Positions 14,466 through 31,861 of a stretch of DNA of 34,139 bases are shown piece by piece. The stretch is taken from NCBI GenBank assembly GCA_021298975.1, contig JAJTGC010000015.1:1-34139 (forward strand), written 5' to 3'. Both the position numbers and the translations under genes were made by a program. The DNA is from Oxalobacteraceae bacterium. GTDB lineage: Bacteria > Pseudomonadota > Gammaproteobacteria > Burkholderiales > Burkholderiaceae_D. Each line of letters begins with the position of its first letter. Within the stretch, counting starts at the first letter, position 1. The notes beneath the pieces were generated by a model that saw only the letters and a list, made by a program, of their open reading frames with translations, ran no database searches and was not told the DNA's origin.

Positions 14466-14482
14466 GCTTGGGGAGATGCGTA

Positions 14483-15055
14483 ATGACGAGTAATGACATG
14501 GGTGGTTTGCCGGGAGCCGGCGCAATGAACGACACCCTCGAATTTGTGCGCAACATGTGGGGTGCGATGAAGATACCCGGTATGTCCATGCCATCGATGT
14601 CGCCTGATGACATCAACAAGCAAATTACCGATCTCAAGGCGGTCGAGTCCTGGTTATTGATGAACATGAATATGTTGCGGACCACGATACAGACGCTGGA
14701 GGTCCAGAGCGCCACCTTGGCGGCAATTCAGGCCATGGGTCAGAGTTTTTCGCAGGCCGGTGCCAGCCGACCCACGGCCGAAGGCACGCCTGCTTTCGAA
14801 TCACCTTTTGAAAAAGCGGCCGGCAAGACAGATACATCTGCTCCGGGCATGCCGGACACGGCCGCATTCGCAGCGCAGTTTGCCAATCCGGCTTTGTGGT
14901 GGAACACGGTGCAGGATCAGTTTGCGCAGGCGGTCAATCAGGTCGTGACACCACCGAAGAAACCCGCCACCAAAAAAGCAGCGCCCAAAAAGAAAGCAGC
15001 AGGCGCGGCAAAAAAAACTGCAGCCTCGCGCGGTACGAAAAAAGCCAAAACCTGA
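14483..15055 (+). CDS. phaM: PhaM-type polyhydroxyalkanoate granule regulator
   Basis: A 190-residue protein. The N-terminus (NDTLEFVRNMWGAMKIPGM..MPSMSPDDINKQITDLKAVESWLLMNMNML) is the conserved PhaM family block, with a helical region to about residue 95 and a C-terminal Lys/Ala/Pro tail (PPKKPATKKAAPKKKAAG...) like histone-type DNA-binding tails. In Cupriavidus necator PhaM binds and activates PHA synthase PhaC1 and tethers PHB granules to the nucleoid; the same role is inferred here. A TTG at 14468 is in frame, but ATG 14483 has GGGGAG 7 bases upstream and is chosen. No other pha gene is nearby. Confidence 0.88.
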   Translation: MTSNDMGGLPGAGAMNDTLEFVRNMWGAMKIPGMSMPSMSPDDINKQITDLKAVESWLLMNMNMLRTTIQTLEVQSATLAAIQAMGQSFSQAGASRPTAEGTPAFESPFEKAAGKTDTSAPGMPDTAAFAAQFANPALWWNTVQDQFAQAVNQVVTPPKKPATKKAAPKKKAAGAAKKTAASRGTKKAKT

Positions 15056-15139: not shown

Positions 15140-15571
15140 TTATTTGCGCGCCAGTCGTTTCAGGCCACGCATCAATGAACCCAGCAAAGGCAGTTTTTCG
15201 TAAAGCTCTTCTGCCGCATCCCAGTAATCACGATGGAAATTTGCCTTGCCGTCGGAGCCAAAGCGCAGATGTGTCGCGCCGCGTATGCATTGCTCTGCCG
15301 TAGAAAAGCGTTTCATTCGAAACAAAAAATCCCAGGTCAGAAAAGCCTGATCGCCTTGCAGCACATGACTGGTCACGACAAAGCGTGGGCTATCGACTTG
15401 TTCGAACATGTGCGAAAAAATTTGTACGACTGCGGGCAGGCCGCGTACTTCATTGAAGGGATCCTTGAAAAATACATCCTCGGTATACACCTGCGCTAAC
15501 TGGCCGATATTGCCGGCATTGATGGTTTCAAAAAAACCAATCAGTTTTTGCAGGTCGTCTTCGTGATTCAT
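15140..15571 (-). CDS. Nuclear transport factor 2 (SnoaL-like) family protein
   Basis: A 143-residue NTF2-fold protein: LQKLIGFFETINAGNIGQLAQVYTEDVFFKDPFNEVRG is the usual helix-plus-pocket start of the family, and FLTWDFLFRMKRF and IRGATHLRFGSDGKANFHRDYWD the later strands. Members are small-molecule binding proteins or isomerases; proteins of this subtype regularly accompany the SDR, DUF3833, DUF1365 and CFA-like genes found upstream. The start overlaps the SDR stop (ATGA), making it the last gene of the eight-gene operon. The specific reaction is unknown. Confidence 0.85.
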   Translation of the reverse strand: MNHEDDLQKLIGFFETINAGNIGQLAQVYTEDVFFKDPFNEVRGLPAVVQIFSHMFEQVDSPRFVVTSHVLQGDQAFLTWDFLFRMKRFSTAEQCIRGATHLRFGSDGKANFHRDYWDAAEELYEKLPLLGSLMRGLKRLARK

Positions 15572-16413
15572 AGGCCGGTCACTTTGTGAATCAGTGAAAA
15601 ATACCAGCGATAGGGCAGGAGCCTTGCCATTCTGAGCCAGTTCGTAAAGCCTTTGGGAAAGTGGATATGGAAGCCCCCTTTTTCCATCCCTGTCACGATT
15701 TCCTGTGCTGCACGTCTGGCACTGATCAGGCCCGGCATCACAAACTTGTTTTGCGCCGTCGCCGGTGTTTCAACGAAACCGGGATTGATCATATACACCG
15801 CATGTCCTCGCGGATGCAGATCAAAGTACAGTGATTCGCACAGATTGATCAGTGCCGCCTTGGTGGGGCCGTACACCAGCGCCTTGGGCAAACCTGAATA
15901 CCCGGCAACCGACGAGACGATGCCAATGCCGCCGCCGCCGTTTTCCTGACTGAGCAAGATCGGCAGCATGGCATCAATACAGTGAAATACCCCGCGCAGA
16001 TTCACATCCAGCAGTTGATTGACTACCGCCATGTCGAAGGTGTCGACACGCATTTCATTGTAGGCGCCAGCCACAATCAGCATCAGATCCACACCGCCCC
16101 AGTCGGCGAGCAGCTGGTCGCGAGCGGACATGACTTGTGCATGCTGTGTCACATCCAGTGGCAGAACCAATGCCAGTGGATGGGCGGCCGCTATCTGCTG
16201 CAGTGCATCGGTTTTACGTGCCGATATCGCGACCCGCGCGCCTTTTTCGAGCAACAGCCTGGCCGTCTCCGCGCCGATGCCGGTCGATGCACCAATGACC
16301 CACACCCGTGCGCCGCGCCAATCCCGAATGCGCCGATTCATCCCGCGATCTGCCGGTTCGTACAGCATCGTCTGCGCATCGGGCGCCCGCAGTGCGTGCG
16401 GAGCGAGCGTCAT
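15568..16413 (-). CDS. Short-chain dehydrogenase/reductase (SDR) family protein
   Basis: A 281-residue classical SDR, presumably an NAD(P)H-dependent oxidoreductase. The cofactor loop GASTGIG is at 41-47, the acidic/NNAG-equivalent region reads IVAGAYN, with N138 in DVNLRG, the catalytic Ser in IVSSVAG (167-168), and Y181/K185 in YGPTK. The C-terminus (LRMARLLPYRWYFSLIHKVTG) is basic and hydrophobic and could associate with the membrane. The start is fixed by the TAATG junction with DUF3833 (shared A), although ATG at residue 25 is possible. Part of the lipid/oxidative-stress operon; a substrate derived from modified acyl chains is inference. Confidence 0.9.
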   Translation of the reverse strand: MTLAPHALRAPDAQTMLYEPADRGMNRRIRDWRGARVWVIGASTGIGAETARLLLEKGARVAISARKTDALQQIAAAHPLALVLPLDVTQHAQVMSARDQLLADWGGVDLMLIVAGAYNEMRVDTFDMAVVNQLLDVNLRGVFHCIDAMLPILLSQENGGGGIGIVSSVAGYSGLPKALVYGPTKAALINLCESLYFDLHPRGHAVYMINPGFVETPATAQNKFVMPGLISARRAAQEIVTGMEKGGFHIHFPKGFTNWLRMARLLPYRWYFSLIHKVTGL

Positions 16414-16952
16414 TACTGAGGCCTTTTGCGAAATGACAGGGTGACTTCACCCAGCCGTATGCCGAATTTGCTCATGACCGCGCGATTGATCATCACGTTC
16501 TCATCCATCTGGTACATCCAGTCATCGAAATTGACGTGATACACCTTGCCATCGACGGGAAGTGCCAGCACATACTTCCAGTTGAGTGAATTGCCACCGG
16601 TTGTACCATCGGCCTGACCAATCACATCACCCGCCGTGCCGATGTAGCGGTTCTCGCCTGCCTTCTTGAGCGTCCACACGCGTTTTTGCGTGGTGCCATC
16701 CGAGTAGGTGAAGTCTTCATCCAGTGTGCCTGTGTCGCCTTCCCAGCTGCAGTGCATCACCACAGTGAAGCGCTTGACGACCTTGCCCGAGCGATCCTGG
16801 AATATGCCCCACGCATCCACGGTGCCGTTGAAATAGGTTTTCAGGTCGAGCGCCGGCTGCTCAGCGGCGTAATCAGCGGGTGTCATTGTTGTCCCGCAGC
16901 CAGCCACCGTCATTGCCAGCATAAAGCCGACTGATCGTATCCATGCATTCAC
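16413..16952 (-). CDS. DUF3833-domain lipoprotein
   Basis: A 179-residue protein with a lipoprotein signal peptide and lipobox VAGC (Cys19), so probably attached to the inner leaflet of the outer membrane or to the inner membrane. The DUF3833 domain runs from about residue 30 (LDLKTYFNGTVDAWGIFQDRSGKVVKRFTV) to the end (RLGEVTLSFRKRPQ). The start codon is GTG with GGAGA 6 bases upstream; no in-frame ATG fits. Function unknown, but the family is found almost exclusively with the SDR, CFA-like and chalcone-isomerase-like genes of this operon type. The stop and SDR start share a base. Confidence 0.85.
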   Translation of the reverse strand: MNAWIRSVGFMLAMTVAGCGTTMTPADYAAEQPALDLKTYFNGTVDAWGIFQDRSGKVVKRFTVVMHCSWEGDTGTLDEDFTYSDGTTQKRVWTLKKAGENRYIGTAGDVIGQADGTTGGNSLNWKYVLALPVDGKVYHVNFDDWMYQMDENVMINRAVMSKFGIRLGEVTLSFRKRPQ

Positions 16953-17011
16953 AATCTATCTCCATAGTTTTCATTCTGGTGTTATCTCGCGTTTTGTTTC
17001 GGATTTCAATG

Positions 17012-18250
17012 TCAAACGTGCTTGAGCGGTGAGCGCCACAACAGCAAGCCCGCGGCCACTTTCAGTCCGCAAGGCAGCAGCGCGTACCCGATGACCAGTG
17101 CGCGCAATCCTTCTTCACTGGCATGACCGGGCGCATAACCAAGCCAGTCCAGCAAGGGCAGTGAAATGCCCGCAGCGAGCGCCAGATTGAGCTTGGTCAT
17201 CCAGCTCCACAGCCCGAAGTACGCGCCCTCGCGTTGTCCGCTGTGACCTGCCGCGCCAATGACACCGGCCAGCAAGGCGGGCGGTAACGCCAGGTCGGCA
17301 CCCAGTGCTGCGCCAGAGAGCACACAAATCACGGCGAACGACACCAGCGCGCCGCTGTCAAGTTGCGCAGTCCATACGAAAGCACTCACGGCCAGCAGCA
17401 TGCCTGCCAGCCAGGCATTGGCTTCGCCGATGTGCGTCGCCAGCTTCGCCCAGGCGGGCAATGCCAGTGCGGCGGAAAAAAAATACAGCACCAGAAACAA
17501 GCCGGCGTATTCCGGCAACAGCAATCCGTCTGATGCAAAAAACATGAACAGTGTGGCGGGTATCGCAGCAGCGATGCCATTGATGGCGAACACGGCGAGC
17601 AACCAGCGAAACTGTCGGTCGCGCAAGGGCAGCATCACGGAGTGTGCTGGCGCATTCTCTGCGGTGCGCAACAACGCGCGTGGCGCAAAGCGCAGCAGTA
17701 CAAAAGCCGTGACGGCGAGCAGTAAAATAAAAACGATCGACAAGCCGGCCATGCCAATCATCATGGGCAGCGCCGCCGCCATCACGACACCTGCCAATGC
17801 GCAGGCTTCGCGCGTTGCTGTCAGGCGTGCGCGCTCGCCGCGTTGCTGCGTGAGACTTGCGCCCCAGCTGTTGTGCGCAATCGTCGCCATGCTGAAGCCT
17901 GCGTAAACTACCAGCAAGCTCAAACCAAACCACAGATACAAATGATCGGTCGACAGCACCGGCGGATGAAACAGCGCCAGATAGCCGGCACTCAGCGGTG
18001 CCAGCGACATCAGCACAAAGCCGGCATGGCCACGCGTCAGCGCCGCTCTGTCCATCCAGCCACCCAAGGCCGGATCAATGAAGGCATCAAACAACCGAGC
18101 GGCCAGCAACAGGCTGCCCACGGCGGTCAGCGACAATCCCAGCGTACCGGCGTACAACTGCGGCACCACGACATAGACGGGCAGCGCCAGCAGCGCGAGT
18201 GGCAGTCCAAACAAGCCGTAGGCAAATAAATGCCTCAAGGAGAATGTCAT
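17012..18250 (-). CDS. MFS transporter of the GPH cation-symporter type
   Basis: A 412-residue inner-membrane carrier with about 12 hydrophobic segments. The N-terminus (FAYGLFGLPLALLALPVYVVVPQLYAGTLGLSLTAVGSLLLAARLFDAFIDPALGGWMD) is the hallmark of the MFS_2 / glycoside-pentoside-hexuronide family, including the RLFDAFIDP motif. Family members import sugars with Na+ or H+, but related proteins (for example the MFSD2A group) move lipids, which would fit this operon better; the substrate is not determined by the sequence. Genes lie 34 bases before and 59 bases after it in the same operon. Confidence 0.88.
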   Translation of the reverse strand: MTFSLRHLFAYGLFGLPLALLALPVYVVVPQLYAGTLGLSLTAVGSLLLAARLFDAFIDPALGGWMDRAALTRGHAGFVLMSLAPLSAGYLALFHPPVLSTDHLYLWFGLSLLVVYAGFSMATIAHNSWGASLTQQRGERARLTATREACALAGVVMAAALPMMIGMAGLSIVFILLLAVTAFVLLRFAPRALLRTAENAPAHSVMLPLRDRQFRWLLAVFAINGIAAAIPATLFMFFASDGLLLPEYAGLFLVLYFFSAALALPAWAKLATHIGEANAWLAGMLLAVSAFVWTAQLDSGALVSFAVICVLSGAALGADLALPPALLAGVIGAAGHSGQREGAYFGLWSWMTKLNLALAAGISLPLLDWLGYAPGHASEEGLRALVIGYALLPCGLKVAAGLLLWRSPLKHV

Positions 18251-18284
18251 TCGGGATGTCTCTGCTGACTCAAGATAGCCCCCG

Positions 18285-18839
18285 TCATTTCGTGTTCAAT
18301 AAAAGCTGACGCAATTTTGGTGCTGACGTTTTCGGATGTAACCAGATACCAAAAAATGCAGGACCGAATTCAGGATCGGCAACATCACCGATGGGTTTGC
18401 CATTGAAAAAAAAGCGTGACGGCTGCCCGGGAGCGAAGATGCCGGTCAGCTGCTGACCTTCGTCCACATTGGGGAAAATCTTCTTCATATCAGCCAGCCA
18501 TTGATCATGTTGCGCGTTGGTACCTATCCCCAGTTTTTTTATTTCATCGATACTGGCAACGGCAATTTTTTCACCGTACAGGGTTCGTGTGTATTCAAGC
18601 TCCAGGGCAAAACTGCTGCCGGGCCATCCTGCTGCGGTGACCTTTGTTTTGTCACCCCACAAGCGCGCTTTATAAATGCTCAGACCAAACCAGCGGTACA
18701 CACCCTGTCCGACCAGCGTGGACTCGGGGAGCACTTGCCGAACGTAGGTCGGGGATGTCTGCGCGAATGCCGACAGAGATAGCAGGCATGCCACCAGAGC
18801 CAGCAAGAAAAAAATTCGTGGGTATGGCGCTTTCTTCAT
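18285..18839 (-). CDS. Chalcone-isomerase-like exported protein
   Basis: A 184-residue protein with a signal peptide (MKKAPYPRIFFLLALVACLLSLSAFAQ), then a chalcone-isomerase-like domain (VGQGVYRWFGLSIYKARLWGD, ALELEYTRTLYGEKIAVASIDEIKKLG, GIFAPGQPSRFFFNGKPIGDVADPEFGPAFFGIWL). Plant homologues of this fold include fatty-acid-binding proteins as well as true isomerases. Since it is secreted and sits in a lipid-modification operon, fatty-acid binding in the periplasm is a fair guess. ATG 18839 is chosen because it begins the signal peptide and overlaps the upstream stop by 4 bases; a longer reading from 18899 would bury the signal. Confidence 0.87.
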   Translation of the reverse strand: MKKAPYPRIFFLLALVACLLSLSAFAQTSPTYVRQVLPESTLVGQGVYRWFGLSIYKARLWGDKTKVTAAGWPGSSFALELEYTRTLYGEKIAVASIDEIKKLGIGTNAQHDQWLADMKKIFPNVDEGQQLTGIFAPGQPSRFFFNGKPIGDVADPEFGPAFFGIWLHPKTSAPKLRQLLLNTK

Positions 18840-20071
18840 CGTTTCTGCAATGTGAACTGATACAGGTCGATGCTGCCGGCACGAAATCCCGCTTCGCAAT
18901 AAGACAGATAAAAACGCCAGGTTTGAATGAAGGCCGTATCAAAGCCCTGTGCGGTCACTTCCGGCAGGGTTTTCATGAAGGCCGCGTGCCACAGTTCGAG
19001 TGTTCGTGCGTAATCGAGACCGAAGGCGAGTTCATTGACGACTTGCAGGCCATGACGTTCTGCGTAAGCGCGAAACACCGAGGGCGATGGCAGCATGCCA
19101 CCGGGGAAAATGTATTGCTGAATAAAATCAGTCCCGGTACGGTAGCGCTCGAACAGGCCATCCTCAATCGTGATGGTTTGTATGCAAGCCCGCCCGCCAG
19201 TTTTCAGCCGCTGCGCCACACAGGTAAAGTAACTGTCCCAATAGGCTTCGCCAACCGCCTCGAACATCTCGATCGATGCGATTGCATCAAATTCACCTTC
19301 GGCATCGCGATAATCCTGCAGCTTCAGGTCGGTCTGACCGGCCAGTCCGGCTGTTTGCAAGCGTTGCTGCGCGAATTCCAGCTGCTCGGTCGACAGTGTC
19401 AGACCTGTAAGATGCGCGCCACGCGTTGCAGCAAGCTCGGCAAAGCCGCCCCAGCCACAACCAATCTCCAGAATTCGGCTGCCGGCGCTCAACTTCAGTT
19501 CGTCATAAATACGTTCGTACTTGGCGGTTTGTGCTTCCTGCAGTGTCGCCTGCGGATGCGCAAACAGCGCGCTCGAATAGGTCATCGACGGATCCAGCCA
19601 CAGCGTGTAAAAGTGATTGCCGATATCGTAATGCGCGTGGATATTACGGCGACTGCCGGAGCGTGAATTGCGATTGAAAAGATGACGAATACGGTAGACC
19701 AGACTGCCCCACCAGCTGCCATAAATCGCCGTCTCCAGCGCATTGCGGTTGTAGATGAACAGCCTGAGCAGACCGGTCAGATCATCGGTATGCCATTGCT
19801 GGCTGATAAAGCTCTCCGCAAATCCGATGTCCCCTGATTTCATCACGGCGACGCACGGATCCCAGTTCTTCAGTGTCAGCGTGACAGCCGTGCTGTCGTC
19901 ACCAAAATGCAGCGACGTGCCATCCGGGCAGGTCAGTTGCAGCGCGCCATGTTCCAATCGGCGTAACATTTGAAGCACGATTCTCGCCTGTGCCGGAAGC
20001 GTGGCAGATTGAATATAGCTGCCAGTAATCTCATCATGAAGGGCGCGTGAGGGAGACAGTGGTTTATTCAT
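18836..20071 (-). CDS. cfa: Cyclopropane-fatty-acyl-phospholipid synthase family methyltransferase
   Basis: Transfers a methyl(ene) group from S-adenosylmethionine to unsaturated acyl chains of membrane phospholipids. At 411 residues, it has an N-terminal lipid-binding domain (to about 130), HYDIGN (147-152), the SAM loop LEIGCGWGG (201-209), MFEAVGEAYWDSYF, and the typical DFIQQYIFPGGMLPS. Two active-site positions differ from E. coli Cfa: the Cys of YSCAYW is Ser (S167 in YSSALF), and the His of the LHTIGS strand is Gln (IQTITI). The Gln form occurs in plant-type enzymes. The product may be a cyclopropane, a methyl-branched alkene or a furan precursor. It overlaps both neighbours by 4 bases, so coupling to DUF1365 and the flavoprotein is tight. 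Confidence 0.92.
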   Translation of the reverse strand: MNKPLSPSRALHDEITGSYIQSATLPAQARIVLQMLRRLEHGALQLTCPDGTSLHFGDDSTAVTLTLKNWDPCVAVMKSGDIGFAESFISQQWHTDDLTGLLRLFIYNRNALETAIYGSWWGSLVYRIRHLFNRNSRSGSRRNIHAHYDIGNHFYTLWLDPSMTYSSALFAHPQATLQEAQTAKYERIYDELKLSAGSRILEIGCGWGGFAELAATRGAHLTGLTLSTEQLEFAQQRLQTAGLAGQTDLKLQDYRDAEGEFDAIASIEMFEAVGEAYWDSYFTCVAQRLKTGGRACIQTITIEDGLFERYRTGTDFIQQYIFPGGMLPSPSVFRAYAERHGLQVVNELAFGLDYARTLELWHAAFMKTLPEVTAQGFDTAFIQTWRFYLSYCEAGFRAGSIDLYQFTLQKR

Positions 20072-20862
20072 CGGCTCAATGAAGAAGTAGGTGGCAATGG
20101 TTTTCTGAAGAATGGCACGCGCTTGATGAACAGGCGCAGTGCCTGCCAGTGAATCCGGGCAATCACGCCGAGGGTCATCAGCGGATGACGCAGCAAGGCT
20201 TCAGCGGCGCTGGTATTGGAGAGTGGCGAGAGTACACCGGAGACGCTCGTCAGCAGCAGCGGGCCTTGGTCATCGTCATAATCAATGCGCGCTACGATGC
20301 GCTCGATATCTTTGCCCTCGATATGCTGCGTCGTGCGCATGAAGCGGAAACGATAATTGCCTTCGACAGCGCAGAAGGGCGACACATGAAAGACTTTTTT
20401 CGCCGCCAGCGACACGCCCCAGGACATCACGTCGCCGGTATCCAACAGGTAGCAATGACGCTCGCCGAAGGTATTGTTCACTTCGCAGACAATCGCGCGC
20501 AACTCACCATCACGCCGGTGGCAATACCAGAACGAGACCGGATTGAAGACATAGCCCAGCACCCGAGGGAAGCTCTGCAGCCAGATTTCGCCATCGGCAT
20601 CGTTGACCTGCTCGCTTTTCAATAATTGATCTATCCACTGCAGCAGCGGTGATTTGCCATCACCATGATCGCGATCGTAGAAGGACATCAGATTGAAGCG
20701 ATTGCGTGAGCACAAGCGACTGGGTAGTGCAGCGTCGCCCAGCGTACGCAGCGGTAACATGAGTGTGAATACGCCGTAGCTGAAGGTGTTTTGCGCCGGG
20801 CGCAGGCGGCTGTGTCTTACCTGACCTCTGCTCAACAACGCTTGCTTGGGCAGCTTTTGCAT
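20068..20862 (-). CDS. DUF1365-domain protein of the FAD/DUF1365/CFA lipid module
   Basis: A 264-residue protein of the DUF1365 family (COG3496), seen in LSRGQVRHSRLRPAQNTFSYGVFTLMLPL, the FYDRDHGDGKSPLLQWIDQLL block, FPRVLGYVFNPVSFWYCHRRDGELRAIVCEVNNTFGERHCYLL and HVSPFC(A)VEGNYRFRF. Biochemical function unknown; the family nearly always lies between an FAD oxidoreductase and a CFA-like gene. GTG at 20877 is in frame and overlaps the upstream stop, but GGGAGG 5 bases before ATG 20862 makes that the better start. Overlaps the CFA-like gene by 4 bases. Confidence 0.87.
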   Translation of the reverse strand: MQKLPKQALLSRGQVRHSRLRPAQNTFSYGVFTLMLPLRTLGDAALPSRLCSRNRFNLMSFYDRDHGDGKSPLLQWIDQLLKSEQVNDADGEIWLQSFPRVLGYVFNPVSFWYCHRRDGELRAIVCEVNNTFGERHCYLLDTGDVMSWGVSLAAKKVFHVSPFCAVEGNYRFRFMRTTQHIEGKDIERIVARIDYDDDQGPLLLTSVSGVLSPLSNTSAAEALLRHPLMTLGVIARIHWQALRLFIKRVPFFRKPLPPTSSLSR

Positions 20863-20873
20863 CACAGCCTCCC

Positions 20874-22175
20874 TCACGCGGCGCGGCGCTCATGCTGCAG
20901 CGCTTGTTGTTCGATGGCGCTGGCCACCGACAGGCCGGATTTGAGGCCATCCTCATGGAAACCATAGCCCGTCCACGCGCCAGCGAACCAGGTATTGCGC
21001 TGACCCTGAATGCGTGGCAGTGCCTGTTGGGCAGCAATGGCGGCGCTGTCAAACACCGGATGCGCATAATCAAAGCGCCCCATCACGCTCGCGGGATTCG
21101 GTTCGGACAAAGGATTGAGTGACACGATCACCGGCGTCTTGCATGGCAGCGGCTGCAGCATATTGATCAGGTAGTGCACACACACGCGGGGCGCTTCTGT
21201 ACCGGCACTCTCATAGTTCCAGGCTGACCAGGCAGCTTTACGCTCGGGAAGGCAGCTGGCGTCGGTGTGAAGTACCGCCTGATTGGGCTGGTAGCCCACC
21301 GCAGAGAGAATTTTTTTCTCATCATCACTGGCATCGCTCAGCAGCGCGAGACTTTGGTCGCTGTGGCAGGCGAGCACGACTTGATCGTACATCAGGCTGC
21401 CCAGAGCGGAATCCACTTTCACTTGCCTCAGTGCGCCGAGATCAACACGCGATACTGATGTGACGGGTGTCTTGAGATATTTGCTGGTGATGGCTTTGAG
21501 TAGTTGGACGACATAATGCCGCGCGCCACCGGTCACGGTGTGCCATTGTGGCCGATCGCTCACCTGAATCAGTCCGTGGTTATGGCAAAAGCGCACAAAA
21601 GTCGCAAGCGGAAACGCGAGCATCTGCTCGGTGGGACAAGACCAGATGCACCCCGCCATGGGCAGCAAATACCAGTCGCGAAATTCGGTGCTGTACTGGT
21701 GCTGAACCAGAAAATCACCGAGCGGCATGTCATCCATCGCGTCACCACTTTGGGCCATCTGCGTTGTTTCCCGATTGAAGCGCAGGATATCTTTGATCAT
21801 TCGCAGAAAGCGCGGATTGAAGAGATTGCGCCTTTGAGCAAATACGGTATTGAGGTTGGCGCCCGCCCATTCCAGCATGCGCGCGCCGGGCTGATCCGAC
21901 AGCGGCAGTTTGCACGAGAAGGACATATCGCTGGCTGAGGTATTGACTTTGATGTCATCAAACAGCCGAACCAGATTGGGATACGTGCGGTGATTAAAAA
22001 CGAGAAAACCCGTGTCTACACCGAAAGTTTTGCCCTCGACGGTGATGTCCACCGTATTGGTGTGACCGCCAAAATAATCGCCGGCTTCGTACAGCGATAC
22101 GTCGTGTCCTGTGCGGGCGAGCTGCCAGGCCGCTGAGAGTCCGGAGATTCCGGAGCCAACCACTGCGATTTTCAT
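20874..22175 (-). CDS. FAD-dependent oxidoreductase (amine-oxidase/desaturase-like) of the CFA module
   Basis: A 433-residue flavoprotein of the COG2907 group. The N-terminal FAD-binding loop VVGSGISGLSAAW (G7, G9, G12), E30 at the end of strand 2, and GGHTNTVD are seen, as is the C-terminal WFAGAWTGYGFHEDGLKSG loop that contacts FAD. In plants this protein is fused to the N-terminus of cyclopropane synthase, strong family evidence that the two act on the same lipid. It may desaturate or oxidise methylated acyl chains, as proposed for furan fatty-acid synthesis in Rhodobacter (recalled, not checked). ATG 22175 is chosen because it begins the Rossmann strand; the longer reading to 22283 adds 36 unlikely residues. 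First gene of the operon. Confidence 0.9.
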   Translation of the reverse strand: MKIAVVGSGISGLSAAWQLARTGHDVSLYEAGDYFGGHTNTVDITVEGKTFGVDTGFLVFNHRTYPNLVRLFDDIKVNTSASDMSFSCKLPLSDQPGARMLEWAGANLNTVFAQRRNLFNPRFLRMIKDILRFNRETTQMAQSGDAMDDMPLGDFLVQHQYSTEFRDWYLLPMAGCIWSCPTEQMLAFPLATFVRFCHNHGLIQVSDRPQWHTVTGGARHYVVQLLKAITSKYLKTPVTSVSRVDLGALRQVKVDSALGSLMYDQVVLACHSDQSLALLSDASDDEKKILSAVGYQPNQAVLHTDASCLPERKAAWSAWNYESAGTEAPRVCVHYLINMLQPLPCKTPVIVSLNPLSEPNPASVMGRFDYAHPVFDSAAIAAQQALPRIQGQRNTWFAGAWTGYGFHEDGLKSGLSVASAIEQQALQHERRAA

Positions 22176-22297
22176 GGTTTTGATACCCCGCGCGAATAAA
22201 ATAGCTGTGACGCCCGTCAGGGAGAATACGGGTTGGGGGAAGATCGCCCCGACATGCCACCAGCCTGTGCCGGGAGGCATCACAGCAAAAACCGTTT

Positions 22298-22314
22298 CGG
22301 ATGCCCTGCATCCG
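22298..22314. repeat. Perfect 7-bp hairpin between gpx and the FAD oxidoreductase gene
   Basis: CGGATGC (22298-22304) and GCATCCG (22308-22314) around CCT. It lies 113 bases past the glutathione peroxidase stop on the minus strand; a TTTTT tract follows 7 bases later in that direction, so it may be an imperfect terminator separating the two leftward transcripts. The rest of 22176-22426 holds no gene I can support; the operon promoter should be here, but I could not assign -35/-10 boxes. Confidence 0.4.
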
Positions 22315-22426
22315 CATTACTGGGAACCGGTCTCGATAGGCTCATGCCACCACAGCAGCCATGCATTCAGCACCGATGTACGATCGGGCGCTGTCAACGC
22401 CGCATGCAGCCCTACGCAGCAGGTTC

Positions 22427-23017
22427 TTACTTGGTGTTGAGCGCCTTTTCGATAGCGGCCAGCATCGTCTTGTCGTTGGGCGACGTGGTACTGCCGTAAT
22501 GGCTGACCAGCTTGCCTTCTCGATCGATCAAGTATTTGTTGAAATTCCAGCCGGGCGCTTTGCCACTGGTCTTGGCCAGTGTCGCGAACAACGGATGGGC
22601 TTCCTTGCCCTTGACGGCTGTTTTCGAAAACATCGGAAACTTTACGCCGTAGGTGTTGTAGCAAAAGTCAGCGATTTCCTTACTGTTGCCAGGTTCCTGA
22701 CTGAAATCGTTCGACGGGAAGCCAAGAATTACCAGTCCCTTGTCCTTGTAGGTTGCGTACAGCTTTTCCAGGCCTTCGTACTGCGAAGTAAATCCGCAGT
22801 AACTTGCCGTGTTGACAACCAGTGTGACCTTGCCCGTGTACTGGCAAAGATTTTGTGGCGAGTCATCCTGCAGGCGGCTGTGCTTGAAGTTCAGCAAAGC
22901 CGGGCATTCATCGGCGAGGCTGACCCGCGGCATGAGTGCCAGCAGTGTCAGAAGCCCGAGAAAACTGACCGTCACCCACCAAGGTCTTGGTATTGCGCGT
23001 ATTGTTTGCTGACTCAT
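22427..23017 (-). CDS. Exported glutathione-peroxidase-type thiol peroxidase
   Basis: A 196-residue protein with a signal peptide (about 1-36, cut near SLADE), so periplasmic. The Cys-type GPx catalytic tetrad is complete: C74 (TASYCGFTSQ), Q107 (SNDFSQEPG), W157 and N158 (WNFNKYLID). The FPCNQF Cys is replaced by Ser, but C119 in EIADFCYNTYGVKFP is at the resolving-Cys position of thioredoxin-dependent GPx enzymes, so it probably works as a 2-Cys peroxidase on lipid or organic hydroperoxides. ATG 23017 begins the signal peptide; a longer reading to 23149 is unlikely. It lies upstream of the lipid operon on the same strand and is divergent from the photolyase, fitting a photo-oxidative-stress set. 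Confidence 0.9.
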   Translation of the reverse strand: MSQQTIRAIPRPWWVTVSFLGLLTLLALMPRVSLADECPALLNFKHSRLQDDSPQNLCQYTGKVTLVVNTASYCGFTSQYEGLEKLYATYKDKGLVILGFPSNDFSQEPGNSKEIADFCYNTYGVKFPMFSKTAVKGKEAHPLFATLAKTSGKAPGWNFNKYLIDREGKLVSHYGSTTSPNDKTMLAAIEKALNTK

Positions 23018-23195
23018 TATCTGAATACCATTAAGTTTTAATTTAGACTGCTCGGTTATTCTAGCGCATTCATGGAAATCGTGTGCCTGTCCGCAAACTT
23101 TTTCCTGATTAGTCTGAAAAAAGCAAAAAAACCAAGTCTTCTGTCGCATTTCACTTAGTCGAGAATTTATTTATGACAACTTTTCTGCCCTGCTC

Positions 23196-24731
23196 ATGCG
23201 CCATCTGATCCTCGTCCTCGGTGACCAATTGAGTTTTACCAGTCCTGTGTTCGAGGACTTCGATGCTGCACAGGATGCTGTGCTGATGATTGAGGCGCCG
23301 GGCGAGGCAAAGGCGGTTTGGTCGCACAAGGCCCGCATTGCCTTGTTCCTGTCTGCGATGCGGCATTTCGCCAATGGCGTGGCGGCGCGCGGCTGGCCCC
23401 TCCACTACGTGCAAATTGATGATCCGGTCGAGCCGGGTTTCGATGAGCGCCTCCGGCAAGCCTTGCGCGCGCATCGCCCGCATGCCTTGCGGCTGGCCGA
23501 GCCGGGCGAGTGGCGCATGCTACAGCAGATACAAAACGTGGCCCGTGACGAGGGCATGGTGCTGCATTTGCTGGATGACACCCATTTTCTGTGCAGTCGA
23601 CCGGAATTCGCCGACTGGGCACGGGGCAAGAAAGAGCTGCGCATGGAGTTTTTTTACCGTGTGATGCGAAAAAAATTCGGCGTCATGATGGACGGCGCCG
23701 AACCTGCCGGTGGTCAATGGAATTTCGATGCCGACAATCGCAGCGCCTACCCCAAACGCACCGGTCCCGGTGCGATCCCGCCGCCCGCTGCTTTTGCGCC
23801 CGATGCGGTGACGCTGCAAGTGATCGCTCTGGTGGAAAAACTTTTTCCGGACCACCCCGGGTCGCTCGCACACTTTGCGTGGCCAGTCACCAGAGAGCAG
23901 GGGCTGGAAGCTTTGGCACGTTTCGTTGATCAGCGCCTATGCAAGTTCGGTGACTTTCAGGATGCGATGTGGACCGACACACCGCTGGGTTGGCACTCCC
24001 TGTTATCGACAGCGCTCAATCTGCACCTGCTCGACCCGCGTGAAGTTATCGCGGCAGCAGAGCAGGCTTGGCGCCAGGGTCATGTCTCGATCGAAAGCGC
24101 AGAGGGCTTCATTCGGCAGGTACTCGGCTGGCGCGAGTTTATCCGCGGTGTGTACTGGACCGACATGCCGGCAATGGCCAAGGCAAATCATTACGGGCAC
24201 GAGCGCGACTTGCCGGACTGGTTCTGGAATGGCCGAACCGACATGGCCTGTGTGCGTGACAGCCTCAAGCAAACGCTGGAGCTGGGTTATGCCCATCACA
24301 TTCAGCGGCTGATGGTCACCGGTAACTTCGCCTTGCTGGCGGGCTTGTCGCCGCAACAGGTCTGCGACTGGTATCTGGCCATTTACGTGGATGCGATTGA
24401 GTGGGTCGAGCTGCCGAATACGGCGGGCATGGCATTGCATGCCTGTGGTCCGCGGTTTACCAGCAAGCCGTATGTGGCGAGCGGCGCCTACATCAACCGC
24501 CAGAGTAATTATTGTTCCGGCTGTCGTTACGACCCAGCGCAGCGCACCGGCGAGACCGCATGCCCGTTCACGACCCTGTATTGGCATTTCATCGACAAGC
24601 ACGAGGCCACGCTGTCGGCCAATCCAAGGACAGCGCTGATGGCAAAAAATCTGCAAAGGCTCGATACGGCCGAGCGCGACGCGATACGTCATCGCGCCGG
24701 ACAAATGCTCGATGCACTGAACGACTTGTGA
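23196..24731 (+). CDS. Iron-sulfur (6-4) photolyase / cryptochrome of the PhrB/CryB type
   Basis: Light-driven DNA repair flavoprotein of the FeS-BCP family. At 511 residues it has the expected length. It opens with LILVLGDQLSFTSPVF (photolyase-related alpha/beta domain), and a C-terminal helical FAD domain carries C352, C440, C443 and C456. These are the four [4Fe-4S] ligands of Agrobacterium PhrB (350, 438, 441, 454) with identical spacing. Typical family motifs seen are GWREFIRGVYW, MVTGNFALLAG, YVDAIEWVELPNTAGMALHACG and YCSGCRYDP. (6-4) photoproduct repair is established for PhrB; a sensory role is the alternative. No ribosome site precedes ATG 23196. Divergent from the peroxidase across a 178-bp AT-rich space. 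Confidence 0.93.
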   Translation: MRHLILVLGDQLSFTSPVFEDFDAAQDAVLMIEAPGEAKAVWSHKARIALFLSAMRHFANGVAARGWPLHYVQIDDPVEPGFDERLRQALRAHRPHALRLAEPGEWRMLQQIQNVARDEGMVLHLLDDTHFLCSRPEFADWARGKKELRMEFFYRVMRKKFGVMMDGAEPAGGQWNFDADNRSAYPKRTGPGAIPPPAAFAPDAVTLQVIALVEKLFPDHPGSLAHFAWPVTREQGLEALARFVDQRLCKFGDFQDAMWTDTPLGWHSLLSTALNLHLLDPREVIAAAEQAWRQGHVSIESAEGFIRQVLGWREFIRGVYWTDMPAMAKANHYGHERDLPDWFWNGRTDMACVRDSLKQTLELGYAHHIQRLMVTGNFALLAGLSPQQVCDWYLAIYVDAIEWVELPNTAGMALHACGPRFTSKPYVASGAYINRQSNYCSGCRYDPAQRTGETACPFTTLYWHFIDKHEATLSANPRTALMAKNLQRLDTAERDAIRHRAGQMLDALNDL

Positions 24732-24815
24732 TTTCGGGCTCAGGTAAAAGCAATCTACAAGTCGCCCCGGCCATCGATCGAACAATCACTTTATTGGTAG
24801 AATCCCCACACGCCA

Positions 24816-25691
24816 ATGATGCAGGAATCTCAACAAATGCTGTATCCCGAACTCTTCCGCTCACTCGAGCAAGTCCGCTGGAACATGGAAACGGATATTC
24901 CATGGGGTGAGTTCGATCCTGCACGGCTGTCTGACGAGCAGGCGCAGACCATACGCATGAATGCAATCACCGAGTGGTCAGCCCTGCCGGCGACTGAGAT
25001 GTTCTTGCGCGATAACCGCAATGACAGTGATTTTTCAGCCTTCATGTCGGTCTGGTTTTTTGAAGAGCAAAAGCATTCGCTGGTATTGATGGAATATCTG
25101 CGCCGGTTTCGGCCTGAGCTGGTACCTACCGAAGCAGAACTGCATAACGTGCGCTTTGAATTCGATCCGGCGCCGCCGCTGGAAACGCTGATGCTGCATT
25201 TTTGTGGCGAGATACGACTCAATCACTGGTATCGCTGTGCTGCTGACTGGCATACCGAGCCGGTGATCAAGCAGATTTACAAGATCATCAGTCATGATGA
25301 GGCACGGCACGGCGGCGCATACCTGCGCTACATGAAAAAAGCACTTGCAGAAGCGGGTGACAATGCCCGGGTTGCTTTCGCAAAAATTGGTGTGCTTATG
25401 GCCTCCGCACGCCGCACCGAAAAACCACTGCATCCGACCAATCTTCATGTGAACCAGGCGCTCTATCCCAACGACACCGTGCAAAGTCGTCTGCCTGATC
25501 CCAACTGGCTTGAGGCCTGGCTGGATCACCAGATTCGTTTTGATGGTGACTGGGAAAAGAAAGTGATCGACCGGATTTTGCACAACCTCTCTTTGCTGTT
25601 TGAGCGCAGCTTCAGTTCTGTCCAGGAACTCAATCGCTATCGCAAGGAAGCGATCGCCCGGCTCGAGCCCCAGACAAAAGCCTCTGCGTAG
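24816..25691 (+). CDS. Ferritin-like diiron protein resembling acyl-ACP desaturases
   Basis: A 291-residue mostly helical soluble protein. Likely diiron ligands are E53 or E61, E84-x2-H87 (FFEEQKHS), E132 (GEIRLNHWYR) and E162-x2-H165 (HDEARHG). Two E-x2-H motifs with an extra Glu at this spacing is the pattern of the acyl-ACP desaturase branch of the ferritin-like superfamily, so it may use O2 to oxidise an acyl chain or another substrate; this is inferred from ligands only. It lies 84 bases after the photolyase. ATG 24837 (giving MLYPELFRSLEQ) has AGGA 10 bases upstream and may be the true start; ATG 24816 has no ribosome site. A TAGAAT box at 24798 could be a -10. Confidence 0.85.
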   Translation: MMQESQQMLYPELFRSLEQVRWNMETDIPWGEFDPARLSDEQAQTIRMNAITEWSALPATEMFLRDNRNDSDFSAFMSVWFFEEQKHSLVLMEYLRRFRPELVPTEAELHNVRFEFDPAPPLETLMLHFCGEIRLNHWYRCAADWHTEPVIKQIYKIISHDEARHGGAYLRYMKKALAEAGDNARVAFAKIGVLMASARRTEKPLHPTNLHVNQALYPNDTVQSRLPDPNWLEAWLDHQIRFDGDWEKKVIDRILHNLSLLFERSFSSVQELNRYRKEAIARLEPQTKASA

Positions 25692-25868: not shown

Positions 25869-26327
25869 ATGAAACGCAGAACCCTGATGCAGGCATTATT
25901 TATCGGCCTGGCCGCGCCCGCCCTCGTGCGCGCTGAAAAGAAAACGCAGATTGACGTGTTCAAAACATCCAGCTGCGGCTGTTGCGTCGAATGGATCACC
26001 CATCTTGAGCAAAATGGTTTCGAGGTCATTGCGCATAATGTGCCGAAAACCGGGCCCTACCGGTTGCGCTTCGGCGTGCCACCCGATATGGCGTCTTGTC
26101 ATACCGCCATGGTGGATGGTTACGCGCTGGAAGGTCACGTGCCTGCACAAGATATTCGGCGTTTGCTTTCCGAGCGCCCCAAGGCTATCGGTCTGGCCGT
26201 GCCCGGGATGCCCGTGGGCAGTCCAGGCATGGAGGTCGAGGGCACACGCAGAGATGCCTACGATGTGATCTTGTTTGGCGAGGGGGATAGCCGCAAGGTA
26301 TTTCAGCATTACGGCGCGCGTTCCTGA
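25869..26327 (+). CDS. DUF411 metal-binding exported protein
   Basis: A 152-residue protein with a signal peptide (MKRRTLMQALFIGLAAPALVRA) and a DUF411 domain: thioredoxin-like VFKTSSCGCCVEW (C36, C38, C39), then DMASCHTAMVDGYALEGHVP (C77, H78), and AIGLAVPGMPVGSPGME with its Met-rich loop. DUF411 proteins (CopG-like) are linked to copper and other metal resistance and are predicted to bind Cu through these Cys/His/Met residues. AAGGA lies 7 bases before the ATG. It appears monocistronic. The PCu(A)C chaperone gene lies about 0.7 kb downstream on the other strand, giving a local copper theme. Confidence 0.9.
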   Translation: MKRRTLMQALFIGLAAPALVRAEKKTQIDVFKTSSCGCCVEWITHLEQNGFEVIAHNVPKTGPYRLRFGVPPDMASCHTAMVDGYALEGHVPAQDIRRLLSERPKAIGLAVPGMPVGSPGMEVEGTRRDAYDVILFGEGDSRKVFQHYGARS

Positions 26328-26378
26328 GCGTTTGCAGCCCCAAACCTGCCTTTAGTTTTGACGAGCGAAAACCTGTTG

Positions 26379-26409
26379 GCGACCTGAGCCGTTGCGTGCT
26401 CAGGTTCGC
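26379..26409. repeat. Stable inverted repeat downstream of the DUF411 gene
   Basis: GCGACCTGAGC (26379-26389) pairs with GCTCAGGTTCGC (26398-26409) over 11 bp with one bulged T and an 8-base loop. No T-run follows. The rest of 26328-26585 shows no gene I can support; this hairpin is the likely 3' end of the DUF411 transcript. Confidence 0.45.
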
Positions 26410-26585
26410 GTCGTGGCAGCAGATAATCTGTGCCGCCATTCTCTGCAGCAAAGGTCTGTGGTGTCGCGCACACATTCCTGTAATTTTTTCGCCCCAGATG
26501 AGTTGAGTGTTTTAAATTCGCCCCGCCGCACGAACATACAGGTTGGCGCGGTCACGGGAAATGCACAAGCGCTCAAGTCAAAATA

Positions 26586-26915
26586 ATGGAAGTTGAAATC
26601 GATTTGCCCTCATTCCTGACTGCGGGTGACGAGCAGCGCTTTTTTCAGGGATTGAAAGATCTGACGGCTATCCGCGAATTTCAGATGAACGATGGGCGAC
26701 TACTGCTCAGAATGGAAATACGATTTCTCACCAAGAGTGCATCAAGAGAATTCATCGCACTGCTCACCCGCTATCAGGTATCGCTCGCACCGCTCAGGTG
26801 TTTATCCGAAACGAACAAAAAATTTATCTGGCTCGCAGATGCTCACGAATACTGGCATCAAAGTATGTTTGGCGATCCGCAGACGGTGCCGGAGCGCAAA
26901 ATCATTCATGGCTGA
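26586..26915 (+). CDS. Hypothetical 109-residue protein
   Basis: Not recognised. The predicted protein is soluble, with no signal peptide or membrane segment. It reads like a compact alpha/beta fold (VEIDLPSFLTAGDEQRFFQGLKDLTAIREFQMNDGRLLLRMEI, then FLTKSASREFIALLTRYQVSLAPLRCLSE, then KFIWLADAHEYWHQSMFG), with alternating hydrophobic strands and amphipathic helices that suggest a real gene rather than chance. No clear ribosome site precedes ATG 26586. It is flanked by hairpins on both sides, so it may be its own transcription unit. Confidence 0.5.
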   Translation: MEVEIDLPSFLTAGDEQRFFQGLKDLTAIREFQMNDGRLLLRMEIRFLTKSASREFIALLTRYQVSLAPLRCLSETNKKFIWLADAHEYWHQSMFGDPQTVPERKIIHG

Positions 26916-26960
26916 GGCACCGCAGACCGTACGGTTGCATGGAAAAGATAGGGCAGGTAG

Positions 26961-27004
26961 TGCGGGCTGAATGTGGTCCGCCTGCGGAACGATGCCAGCC
27001 CGCA
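26961..27004. repeat. Nested hairpin between convergent genes, candidate two-way terminator
   Basis: Outer arms TGCGGGCTG (26961-26969) and CAGCCCGCA (26996-27004) are perfect; inside, TCCGC (26977-26981) and GCGGA (26984-26988) form a second stem. It sits between the end of the hypothetical gene (26915) and the end of the copper chaperone gene (27063). There is no U-run on either strand. Confidence 0.5.
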
Positions 27005-27062
27005 TGCCAGCAGCCGCCCTGCAAGAGATCTCAGACGGAGAGCAGCCTGTCGATGGCACCCC

Positions 27063-27560
27063 TTACTGGTGATGATGATGCTCATGCATCTGTTCATCTT
27101 GCCCTGATTTTGATGCTGCACCTGCTTCCACGACCGTGACCGTGAGCCGTACCTTGCCCGCTTTGCGGAAGCTCAGTTGCATGGGAAAGCTGTCGCCTGC
27201 CTTCAGTGGTTTTTTCAGGCCGATCAGCATGATGTGATAACCCTGCCCAGATTTCATCTCAATTGTTTCGCCGGCCTTGAGCTCAATGCGTTCGACTGTA
27301 CGCATTTTCATCACGTCGCCTTCCATCGTCATCGTGTGAATCTCTACCTTGCCAGCGATTGGTGCAGCCACAGACTGCAGGACATCATCGACCTTGCCCT
27401 GATTTTCAATAGTCAAAAAAGCGGCGCCATTGGACTGGTTGCCTACGCTGGCACGCGCCTGCGCCTGTTCTACATGGATGCTGCCGGCGTGCGTGCCGTG
27501 CGCGTGAACCAGGGTGGTGGCGAGCAGGGTGACAAGTGCGATCATGAGTCGGTTCAGCAT
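27063..27560 (-). CDS. Periplasmic copper chaperone PCu(A)C family protein
   Basis: A 165-residue protein with a signal peptide (MLNRLMIALVTLLATTLVHAHG), then the PCuAC cupredoxin-like domain. The Cu(I) ligand pattern H(M)-x10-M-x21/22-H-x-M is present: H75, M86, H109 and M111 (VEIHTMTM ... KMR ... GYHIML). The C-terminus is His-rich (HEHHHHQ), an extra potential copper-binding tail. PCuAC delivers Cu(I) to the CuA/CuB sites of cytochrome oxidases, and a coxB-ctaD-ctaG operon begins 3 kb away. ATG 27560 has AGGAC upstream and starts the signal peptide; the longer reading to 27686 is not supported. Confidence 0.92.
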   Translation of the reverse strand: MLNRLMIALVTLLATTLVHAHGTHAGSIHVEQAQARASVGNQSNGAAFLTIENQGKVDDVLQSVAAPIAGKVEIHTMTMEGDVMKMRTVERIELKAGETIEMKSGQGYHIMLIGLKKPLKAGDSFPMQLSFRKAGKVRLTVTVVEAGAASKSGQDEQMHEHHHHQ

Positions 27561-27593
27561 GGTGTCCTCAAAATAAAAAGAAGCAATTATCGA

Positions 27594-27627
27594 ATTATAG
27601 GCGCAAGAACCTGCTGAACTGATCAGT
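27594..27627 (-). promoter_or_regulatory. Promoter of the PCuAC gene with an overlapping palindrome
   Basis: On the minus strand a perfect -10 TATAAT (27599-27594) lies 34 bases before the ATG. No good -35 is present at 16-18 bases; instead the perfect 10-bp palindrome ACTGATCAGT (27618-27627) covers that position, so activation by a DNA-binding protein is plausible. Confidence 0.5.
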
Positions 27628-27632
27628 GTTGA

Positions 27633-27686
27633 GTGGCTCGCCAGTGCAGCCGCAGATTGCGCCGTGCAGGTCGGTGGGTGAGCCAC
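27633..27686. repeat. Inverted repeat between trmL and the PCuAC gene
   Basis: GTGGCTCGCC (27633-27642) and GGTGAGCCAC (27677-27686) pair over 10 positions with one mismatch (a wobble in rightward RNA) around a 34-base loop. It begins 11 bases past the trmL stop, so it may mark the 3' end of the trmL transcript, though no U-run follows. Confidence 0.4.
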
Positions 27687-27697
27687 ATCAGTGCTGG

Positions 27698-28168
27698 TCA
27701 GCTACCGCTGACAAAGTCATTCTGACGCCAGGCTTCATAAACGGTAACGGCCACCGCATTGGACAGATTCAGGCTGCGGTTACCGGCACGCATCGGTAGT
27801 CGGATTCTTTGTGAAGGCGGAAAGGATTCGCGCAAACTGACGGACAAGCCGCGCGTCTCTGACCCAAAGACAAACACATCACCGGGCTGGAAGCGCACAT
27901 GGGCGAACACGGCAGACCCATGGGTGGTCATCGCGAACAGTCGCAGCGGGTCGGGCTGCAAGGCGGCCAGAAATGAAGCCCAGTCACGATGCACTTGCAT
28001 GGCCGCGTATTCGTGATAGTCCAGCCCCGCCCGGCGCATCTTTGCGTCGTCCAGCGGAAAACCCAACGGCTCAATCAGATGCAGATGCGCGCCGGTATTG
28101 GCGCACAGCCGAATGATATTGCCGGTGTTCGGCGGTATTTCGGGTTCGACCAGCACCACATGAAACAA
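27698..28168 (-). CDS. trmL: tRNA (cytidine/uridine(34)-2'-O)-methyltransferase
   Basis: SPOUT-fold enzyme that 2'-O-methylates the wobble base of certain leucine tRNAs using SAM. Family motifs: VEPEIPPNTGNIIRLCANTGAHLHLIEPLGF, FGSETRGL, and the knot strand IRLPMRAGNRSLNLSNAVAVTVYEAWRQ. I place the start at TTG 28168: GGAGG lies 5 bases upstream, and the resulting MFHVVLVEPEIPPN aligns end to end with E. coli TrmL (MLNIVLYEPEIPPN). A GTG at 28174 adds two residues but sits directly on that ribosome site. No in-frame ATG exists after the comF stop. The gap after comF is 18 bases, so the two are co-transcribed. Confidence 0.92.
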   Translation of the reverse strand: MFHVVLVEPEIPPNTGNIIRLCANTGAHLHLIEPLGFPLDDAKMRRAGLDYHEYAAMQVHRDWASFLAALQPDPLRLFAMTTHGSAVFAHVRFQPGDVFVFGSETRGLSVSLRESFPPSQRIRLPMRAGNRSLNLSNAVAVTVYEAWRQNDFVSGS

Positions 28169-28186
28169 GGCCACCTCCGCATCAGT

Positions 28187-28918: not shown

Positions 28919-29089
28919 AATTACCGAGAGTTCGTGTTGAAAAGAAGGCTCAATACCATGCCCAGCCTGCTGCGGTACACTGCGCCGAATTATTTCATTG
29001 CAGCCTTGCGTCTTGCGCATCAGGTCTGCTGAGCGACTGATTTTCTTCATGGATCTTATGACCTTGCCCGCAGCCGTGCCGGTTTACTG

Positions 29090-30031: not shown

Positions 30032-30084
30032 ACTACCTGTGCAAAATTTAACTACCCGGTTACTTTCTTCGAGGACTTTTGCAG

Positions 30085-30114
30085 TTGGCGGCAGTTATTT
30101 TTTTCGCTTATACT
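30085..30114 (+). promoter_or_regulatory. Sigma-70-type promoter of the cytochrome oxidase operon
   Basis: -35 TTGGCG (30085-30090), an 18-base spacer that contains seven consecutive T, and -10 TATACT (30109-30114). The predicted start near 30121 gives a leader of about 49 bases before the DUF2244 ATG. Confidence 0.6.
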
Positions 30115-30124
30115 CCGAGGGCTT

Positions 30125-30160
30125 TGGGCGACGCATTGCCCACCGATTTTCCAGAGTGGG
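30125..30160 (+). promoter_or_regulatory. Two mutually exclusive hairpins in the oxidase operon leader
   Basis: TGGGC (30125-30129) can pair with GCCCA (30138-30142). The overlapping CCCAC (30139-30143) can instead pair with GTGGG (30156-30160), which abuts the purine-rich ribosome site GGTAGGG (30159-30165). Only one stem can form at a time, so the leader could gate translation. Stems are only 5 bp, so this is tentative. Confidence 0.3.
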
Positions 30161-30169
30161 TAGGGTGCG

Positions 30170-31838: not shown

Positions 31839-31861
31839 CCGAGAAAAACGAGGAGAAACCC

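Follow-up and report, generated by a model that had tools for sequence, protein, structure and literature searches.

A compact island of eight minus-strand genes on contig JAJTGC010000015.1 (assembly GCA_021298975.1), from an uncultured Burkholderiales bacterium, raises two questions: which lipid chemistry its enzymes would carry out, and what the conserved, RNA-like stretch in front of its first gene might be. The window analyzed here is this complete 34,139-base contig (C91 in our numbering), taken from an assembly of 2.69 Mb that is 88.6 percent complete. The initial annotation had read the island as a set of genes that makes, exports or repairs an unusual acyl lipid under light. Sequence comparison indicated that it is very probably a furan-fatty-acid (FuFA) operon, accompanied by a structured RNA that we interpret as the gene of a stress-induced small RNA. 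The operon type is known and the island adds a new member to it; the linked RNA is the novel element worth following. The features on which this reading depends are listed below.

20874 to 22175, minus strand: ufaD-like flavoprotein (Pfam Amino_oxidase), the putative fatty-acyl desaturase in the furan pathway
20068 to 20877, minus strand: ufaO-like DUF1365 protein (PF07103, E 2e-83), predicted to catalyze the O2-dependent furan-forming step
18836 to 20071, minus strand: ufaM-like S-adenosylmethionine-dependent methylase of the CFA family (PF02353)
22191 to 22295, minus strand: structured RNA, a predicted three-way junction with a terminator-like stem P1 and a pyrimidine-rich P3 loop (covariation, model R1)

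In PMC7380195, methylated furan fatty acids are shown to arise on phospholipid chains through the action of UfaM, UfaD and UfaO; UfaO carries DUF1365 and forms the furan using oxygen from O2, the three genes are enough for furan synthesis in Rhodobacter sphaeroides, and the synthesis was tested biochemically in two alphaproteobacteria, R. sphaeroides and Rhodopseudomonas palustris. DUF1365, which the initial annotation had counted among four proteins having no assigned step, does have one, that of UfaO. Apparently the same enzymes as in the window occur in R. sphaeroides RSP1091-1087 (ufaD, ufaO, RSP1089, RSP1088 and RSP1087) and in R. palustris RPA2571-2569. As a comparison genome we used one (G376) that was taken as R. 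sphaeroides because the lengths of four consecutive genes equal the published base counts of RSP1090-RSP1087. Over 260 aligned positions, the window UfaO-like protein shared 41 percent identity with that genome's DUF1365 protein, and the UfaM-like protein was 44 percent identical to its best CMAS match. The motifs YSSALF and SIEMFEAVG are common to the UfaM-like protein and the presumed R. sphaeroides UfaM, whereas the Cfa paralogue of the window's own genome and two solved Cfas have YSC and VGMFEHVG instead, so that the Cys and His positions of Cfa are replaced in the window protein; these residues presumably bind bicarbonate in Cfa. The Cfa paralogue is a second CFA-family gene of the window's own genome, on contig C4 (L229), and has Cfa-type residues.

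The FuFA-operon reading is based on the UfaO identity, the homologues of RSP1089, RSP1088 and RSP1087 standing in the same order in the window, the UfaM-type residues, and the fact that an Azoarcus plasmid carries these eight genes as well. Two points weigh against it: the R. sphaeroides identity of the comparison genome comes only from the four matching gene lengths, and the ufaD stretch reads N in that genome, so that UfaD was assigned from its family and position. Judged by these homologies, the flavoprotein, DUF1365 and CFA-like genes appear to match UfaD, UfaO and UfaM, which would make the island a known operon type rather than a new pathway. By analogy with R. sphaeroides and R. palustris, UfaM would methylate a cis-vaccenoyl phospholipid chain, UfaD would desaturate the methylated chain, and UfaO would add oxygen from O2 and close the furan ring. 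The acyl-lipid modification claimed by the initial annotation is thus upheld, with a methylated furan fatty acid as the likely product; nothing was found for export or repair, and its light control did not gain support, as detailed below. A fusion of the flavoprotein and CFA domains in plants, which had also been claimed, was borne out by one plant protein that resembles both UfaM and UfaD (PMC10940516). The nearest PDB relative of the UfaD-like flavoprotein was the amine oxidase LkcE (E about 4e-39). The AlphaFold model of the UfaO-like protein had a predicted local distance difference test (pLDDT) value of 89.0, and its fold gave no match to a solved structure in the PDB below E 0.001 (best E 0.035).

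The gene inventory given earlier also held. From 22175 to 15140, Pfam matches identified an amine-oxidase-type flavoprotein, DUF1365, CMAS, Chalcone_3, MFS_2, DUF3833, SDR and SnoaL_2, all on the minus strand. Tight packing, claimed for five of the seven junctions, corresponds to five overlaps (4, 4, 4, 1 and 4 bases), and the remaining two gaps span 34 and 59 bases. What the inventory had missed is the structured RNA between the peroxidase gene gpx and ufaD. The start of the flavoprotein was corrected to the ATG at 22175, with the GTG at 22283 marking an upstream extension that runs across the RNA; in 12 congeneric sequences this upstream part of the open frame is an element kept with insertions and deletions. 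The start of the chalcone-like gene was likewise corrected, to 18839.

Congeneric genomes, other Burkholderiales and the Azoarcus plasmid all show this gene order, a recurrence beyond chance. Among 60 loci fetched, six were DUF3833 loci apart from the core, and 54 were DUF1365 loci. UfaD, UfaO and UfaM share a strand in 52 of the 54; in the two exceptions, UfaO is on the opposite strand (L094) or UfaM is missing (L096). The Azoarcus plasmid (L140), typed as mobilizable, carries the same eight-gene operon together with a divergent MerR gene having B12-binding domains, and one Rhodobacterales plasmid locus shows UfaD-UfaO-carrier with ECF (extracytoplasmic function) sigma and ChrR genes adjoining. 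In Rhodobacteraceae-like loci and, next to ChrR, in Qingshengfaniella, a ufaD-like gene stands ahead of the DUF1365 gene. The closest named matches to the window DUF1365 protein were metagenome assemblies labelled Oxalobacteraceae, Burkholderiaceae or Betaproteobacteria. For the named Burkholderiales-type loci, all selected by UfaO, downstream sequence was sufficient in 66, which contained UfaO (66), UfaM (66), the chalcone-like protein (63), SDR (63), DUF3833 (58), the NTF2-like protein (54) and the carrier (53); upstream sequence was sufficient in 63, which contained the AurF-like protein (37), GPX (28), MerR (22) and photolyase (12). Most examined Burkholderiales loci carrying UfaO have the same operon, and furan fatty acid synthesis emerges as a recurrent operon in many Burkholderiales with a precise list of conserved accessory genes. 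Across 299 genomes of the phylum (E up to 0.001), DUF1365 was found in 94, DUF3833 in 69 and both in 66, within 10 kb of each other in 34 of the 66 (Fisher 1e-39 for co-occurrence, kinship ignored); only G063, G183 and G257 had DUF3833 without DUF1365. A neighborhood survey proposed alongside the initial annotation is thereby answered for its DUF3833 and DUF1365 part.

The predicted covarying three-way-junction RNA is the new part of the locus. It lies between gpx and ufaD, with 15 bases separating it from the ufaD start codon in the window; a U tract comes after P1, and the loop contains CCUCC repeats in the set from outside the window genus and CUUCCCCC in most copies from within it. In 20 non-genus sequences, 95.2 percent of the alignment cells pair and 18 of 25 pairs have changed on both sides, giving a covariation score of 0.506 against 0.249 for shuffled and 0.10-0.13 for slid alignments. 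Fifteen genus sequences behaved similarly (93.7 percent of cells pairing, 11 of 21 pairs doubly changed, score 0.329 against 0.198 shuffled and 0.05-0.19 slid), and in both sets 0 of 500 shuffles reached the score. A model built from the 20 non-genus sequences without the window genus, R1, found the window element at 42.7 bits (E 5.4e-10). R1 was next applied to a further 33 loci, of which 30 had been chosen by the loop and P3 pattern only. It matched all 33; in five of these the RNA has the same sequence as one in the first set. Here 94.2 percent of the P1 cells pair, 8 of 10 P1 pairs are doubly changed, and the covariation score of 0.416, from an alignment fitted to R1, compared with 0.218 shuffled (0/500). 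Conversely, the genus model R2 recovered 18 of the 23 elements that named loci outside the genus contain, with E below 0.01 for 15 of the 18. That each model finds elements of the other's set was counted as support for the RNA.

With stricter filters, the genome-wide R2 search hit 20 of the 21 genus genomes, once each, and had no match in 35 other genomes; the window's own genome contained a single match to the RNA model. An order-wide model search gave 5 of 200 genomes, a lower bound under strict filters that missed the known positive G014. The loop-pattern search was positive in 41 of 250 genomes, once each among the matches listed, and the reversed pattern in 0; 30 of these 41 loci were fetched and examined. 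Neither for the window nor for the loci of 12 relatives did a search of Rfam (release 15) match the RNA to a family, and no fitting small RNA of this kind in Burkholderiales was found in the open-licence literature searched. The locus holds a defined covarying RNA having a promoter-like signature in relatives and no Rfam match, with a possible role in stress or lipid control.

How might the island be controlled? One explanation is that light or singlet oxygen governs the island as a regulon here too, as in Rhodobacter (RpoE/ChrR) or Pseudomonas (LitR/LOV), to which we give somewhat less than an even chance. That homologues of several island genes belong to the Rhodobacter singlet-oxygen response, as the initial annotation had stated, was confirmed by PMC5507510, where the predicted RpoE/ChrR core regulon includes RSP_1087, 1088, 1090, 1091, phrB and cfaS. 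Homologous genes are light-induced in P. mendocina (PMC9758184), and the Pseudomonas pmlR1/PplR light-inducible cluster (phrB, SDR, a flavin adenine dinucleotide-dependent oxidoreductase and ufaM) is an overlapping gene set near a photolyase. MerR-B12-type regulators occur in 22 of 63 named loci, and a TTGTCC-GGACAA-like palindrome, probably a CarH/LitR-type operator, precedes ufaD in 9 of 29 loci with MerR (L161, L162, L163, L165, L166, L168, L175, L179 and L193) and in 0 of 48 without it. In Qingshengfaniella, genes for an ECF sigma factor and for ChrR flank the operon, and a double-cupin protein on contig C97 of the window's own genome matches a ChrR profile at 49 bits. In contrast, matches in the window to the ChrR-type promoter TGATCC-N16-CGTA, allowing up to 2 mismatches, numbered 23 against 23.2 expected by chance, none of them before gpx or ufaD; the class II LitR operator was at chance in the window too, and no LitR-type gene was present there. 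The window thus differs from the R. sphaeroides operon in having no ChrR-type promoter above chance and a structured RNA before ufaD, and from the Pseudomonas cluster in having neither the operator above chance nor the regulator gene. In the own genome, at its stated completeness, partial MerR matches were found but no full-length MerR-B12 regulator, and no ECF sigma match was seen in the roughly 3-kb loci around its PF12973 matches on C97 and C77, the latter a single domain at 33.8 bits. As a control, PF12973 gave no match in the presumed R. sphaeroides genome, for which an N-masked stretch may account. The "under light" part of the initial annotation consequently found no footing in the window.

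A different promoter signature accompanies the RNA in relatives. Of 54 distinct non-genus sequences, 40 have GGAAC at 45-85 bases upstream of the RNA (shuffle mean 2.5, largest 8), and 32 have the fuller motif GGAAC(T/C)-N14-18-(TCTNA-like), against 0.1 in shuffled sequences (largest 2). It resembles general envelope-stress ECF promoters. It differs from the ChrR-type promoter as given in PMC5507510. The signature was present in 12 of 77 ufaD upstream regions, every one an RNA-bearing locus, and showed no enrichment before the AurF-like (1/41), GPX (0/34), PHR (0/13), MerR (0/29) or chalcone-like (0/72) genes. A sigma-70 scan yielded fewer sites than its shuffles; a GCTAGAAT-like stretch before gpx, kept in most of 12 genus sequences, may drive a gpx-RNA-ufaD transcript in the genus.

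The ECF-type signature in relatives, the terminator-like stem and the pyrimidine-rich, anti-Shine-Dalgarno-like loop suggested that the RNA may be a stress-induced small RNA gene, embedded in the FuFA operon in this genus. Relatives display promoter- and terminator-like signatures and stand-alone copies, the promoter signature being absent in the window genus. Its loop may act like the anti-Shine-Dalgarno loops of the alpha-r14/cuckoo RNAs (CcsR, NfeR1), stress-linked small RNAs with exposed CCUCC-rich loops (PMC10746234 and PMC10253847); alpha-r14 members, as described in the former, have three hairpins, each with CCUCCUCCC, whereas the window RNA is a predicted three-way junction with one long pyrimidine loop, without such CCUCCUCCC hairpins and without an Rfam match. 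On the other side of the balance, the signature was found in 0 of 6 upstream regions of the window genus and no GGAACT-type promoter in the window, GGAAC is missing from its range in 14 of the 54 non-genus copies, and P1 of the first 20-sequence set had been picked by an inverted-repeat scan, which favors P1 pairing. Where ufaD is downstream, read-through past the RNA would couple the operon to the same stress signal, and in the window genus the RNA would probably come from the gpx-ufaD transcript, as the ECF signature is missing. That the RNA is transcribed, that it ends at P1 and that it has targets is inferred.

More tentatively, the RNA could represent a new ECF-sigma-dependent Burkholderiales small-RNA family whose three-way junction presents a long anti-Shine-Dalgarno loop and represses many mRNAs having strong Shine-Dalgarno sequences, perhaps envelope mRNAs, under oxidative envelope stress; read-through would turn on furan synthesis and tie lipid remodelling to translational shut-down, and in the genus the RNA would have been captured as a gpx-ufaD intercistronic element. 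Just as tentative is the opposing view that it is a cis-acting leader (attenuator or riboswitch), in which P1 and the U tract terminate transcription before ufaD until a signal refolds the RNA. All 44 R1 matches (38 distinct sequences) in the first 138 sources lie no more than 100 bases upstream of a UfaD match, although these loci had been chosen by UfaO or DUF1365; the short distance to the ufaD start codon in the window and a further hairpin-like repeat, seen by eye after the RNA in several loci, point the same way. A leader would always stand upstream of its gene, but among the 30 pattern loci ufaD is directly downstream in 19 and not in 11, and three further copies (G110, G224 and G235) also lack it there, making 14 of 33. 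In G110 and G235 the RNA is present with no DUF1365 match, and in G224 the ufa operon is on another contig; for the other 11 copies the absence of ufaD was established within about 1.5 kb only. A convergent gene comes next in 13 of the 14 copies, encoding CorA in 4 and GST in 9 (by Pfam, and by sequence for L304); in the remaining one, L312, an unassigned minus-strand frame precedes CorA. Upstream of the 14 copies stands the AurF-like gene in 10 and GPX in four. The RNA may work in trans, in cis on ufaD, or in both ways.

The remaining five genes of the operon were assigned as follows.

18285 to 18839, minus strand: chalcone-isomerase-like (Chalcone_3) protein (PF16036, E 1e-10)
17012 to 18250, minus strand: GPH/MFS carrier, RSP1089-like (PF13347)
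16413 to 16952, minus strand: DUF3833 lipoprotein, RSP1088-like (PF12915, E 1.6e-71)
15568 to 16413, minus strand: short-chain dehydrogenase (SDR), RSP1087-like (PF00106)
15140 to 15571, minus strand: SnoaL/NTF2-like protein (PF12680)

These five proteins are conserved accessories. Identities to the presumed R. sphaeroides proteins were 40 percent over 378 positions for the carrier (RSP1089), 33 percent over 152 for the DUF3833 protein (RSP1088) and 36 percent over 250 for the SDR (RSP1087); compared with the R. sphaeroides operon, the window has ufaM and the chalcone-like gene inside and the NTF2-like gene at the end. In PMC7380195, RSP1089, RSP1088 and RSP1087 are dispensable for furan synthesis, their deletion having left the fatty-acid profile of R. 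sphaeroides unchanged. The lipobox Cys19 of the DUF3833 protein is invariant in 36 sequences, and the model (pLDDT 94.6) is a calycin-like beta-barrel of ten strands, whose weak PDB matches were of lipocalin, nitrobindin and fatty-acid-binding types. In three of the six separate DUF3833 loci (L088, L102 and L104), the chalcone-like gene is the neighbor of DUF3833 at a distance from the ufa core. Given the predicted fold and the lipoprotein signal, the DUF3833 and chalcone-like proteins may form a periplasmic lipid-binding pair.

Upstream of the RNA, the neighbors described initially as a secreted peroxidase, an Fe-S photolyase and a diiron desaturase-like protein were all present.

22427 to 23017, minus strand: GPx-family peroxidase, upstream of the RNA (PF00255, E 2.5e-32)
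23196 to 24731, plus strand: Fe-S (6-4)-type photolyase (PF04244, E 1.4e-75)
24816 to 25691, plus strand: AurF/FA_desaturase_2-like diiron protein (PF03405 and PF11583)

The photolyase is similar over its full length to solved chains that include (6-4) photolyases among the nearest (E about 1e-145), and nearly full-length homology was evident to the bacterial Fe-S (6-4) photolyases (PhrB) and CryB; cysteines 352, 440, 443 and 456 are its candidate Fe-S cluster ligands. Of the 77 named loci whose ufaD start was usable, 31 have the RNA, and the AurF-like gene is present in 28 of these against 13 of the 46 without it (Fisher 4e-8, kinship ignored). The AurF-like gene is unlikely to encode a further furan-pathway enzyme: the gene occurs in more than half of the named loci with enough upstream sequence, and its candidate diiron ligands (E52, E83, H86, E131, E161 and H164) are invariant in 29 sequences, but it was found in only 9 of the 299 phylum genomes, 5 of the 9 also having DUF1365 (Fisher p 0.11), and furan needs just three genes in R. 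sphaeroides (PMC7380195). As an obligate pathway enzyme it was rejected for this weak co-occurrence and is treated as a neighbor.

The GPx-family gene is syntenic in the genus, and the N-terminus of its protein looks signal-like by eye. That the RNA amounts to no more than an intrinsic gpx terminator together with inverted repeats arising by chance, as the U tract after P1 and the frequent upstream GPX might suggest, is very improbable, for P2 and P3 also covary (double changes in 5/5 and 5/10 pairs), the RNA is kept in loci that gave no GPX match, and it frequently has its own promoter-like site.

Past the end of the island in the genus, positions 14468-15055 of the window encode a protein that is PhaM-like (polyhydroxyalkanoate granule) by eye, without a Pfam match. 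Next door on the other side, 25869-33457 contains genes for DUF411, a PCuAC copper chaperone, COX2 with cytochrome c, and COX1. At 7814-11419 the window encodes a long protein that combines POR, TPP and DUF6537 domains and that we take to be of the indolepyruvate-ferredoxin-oxidoreductase type.

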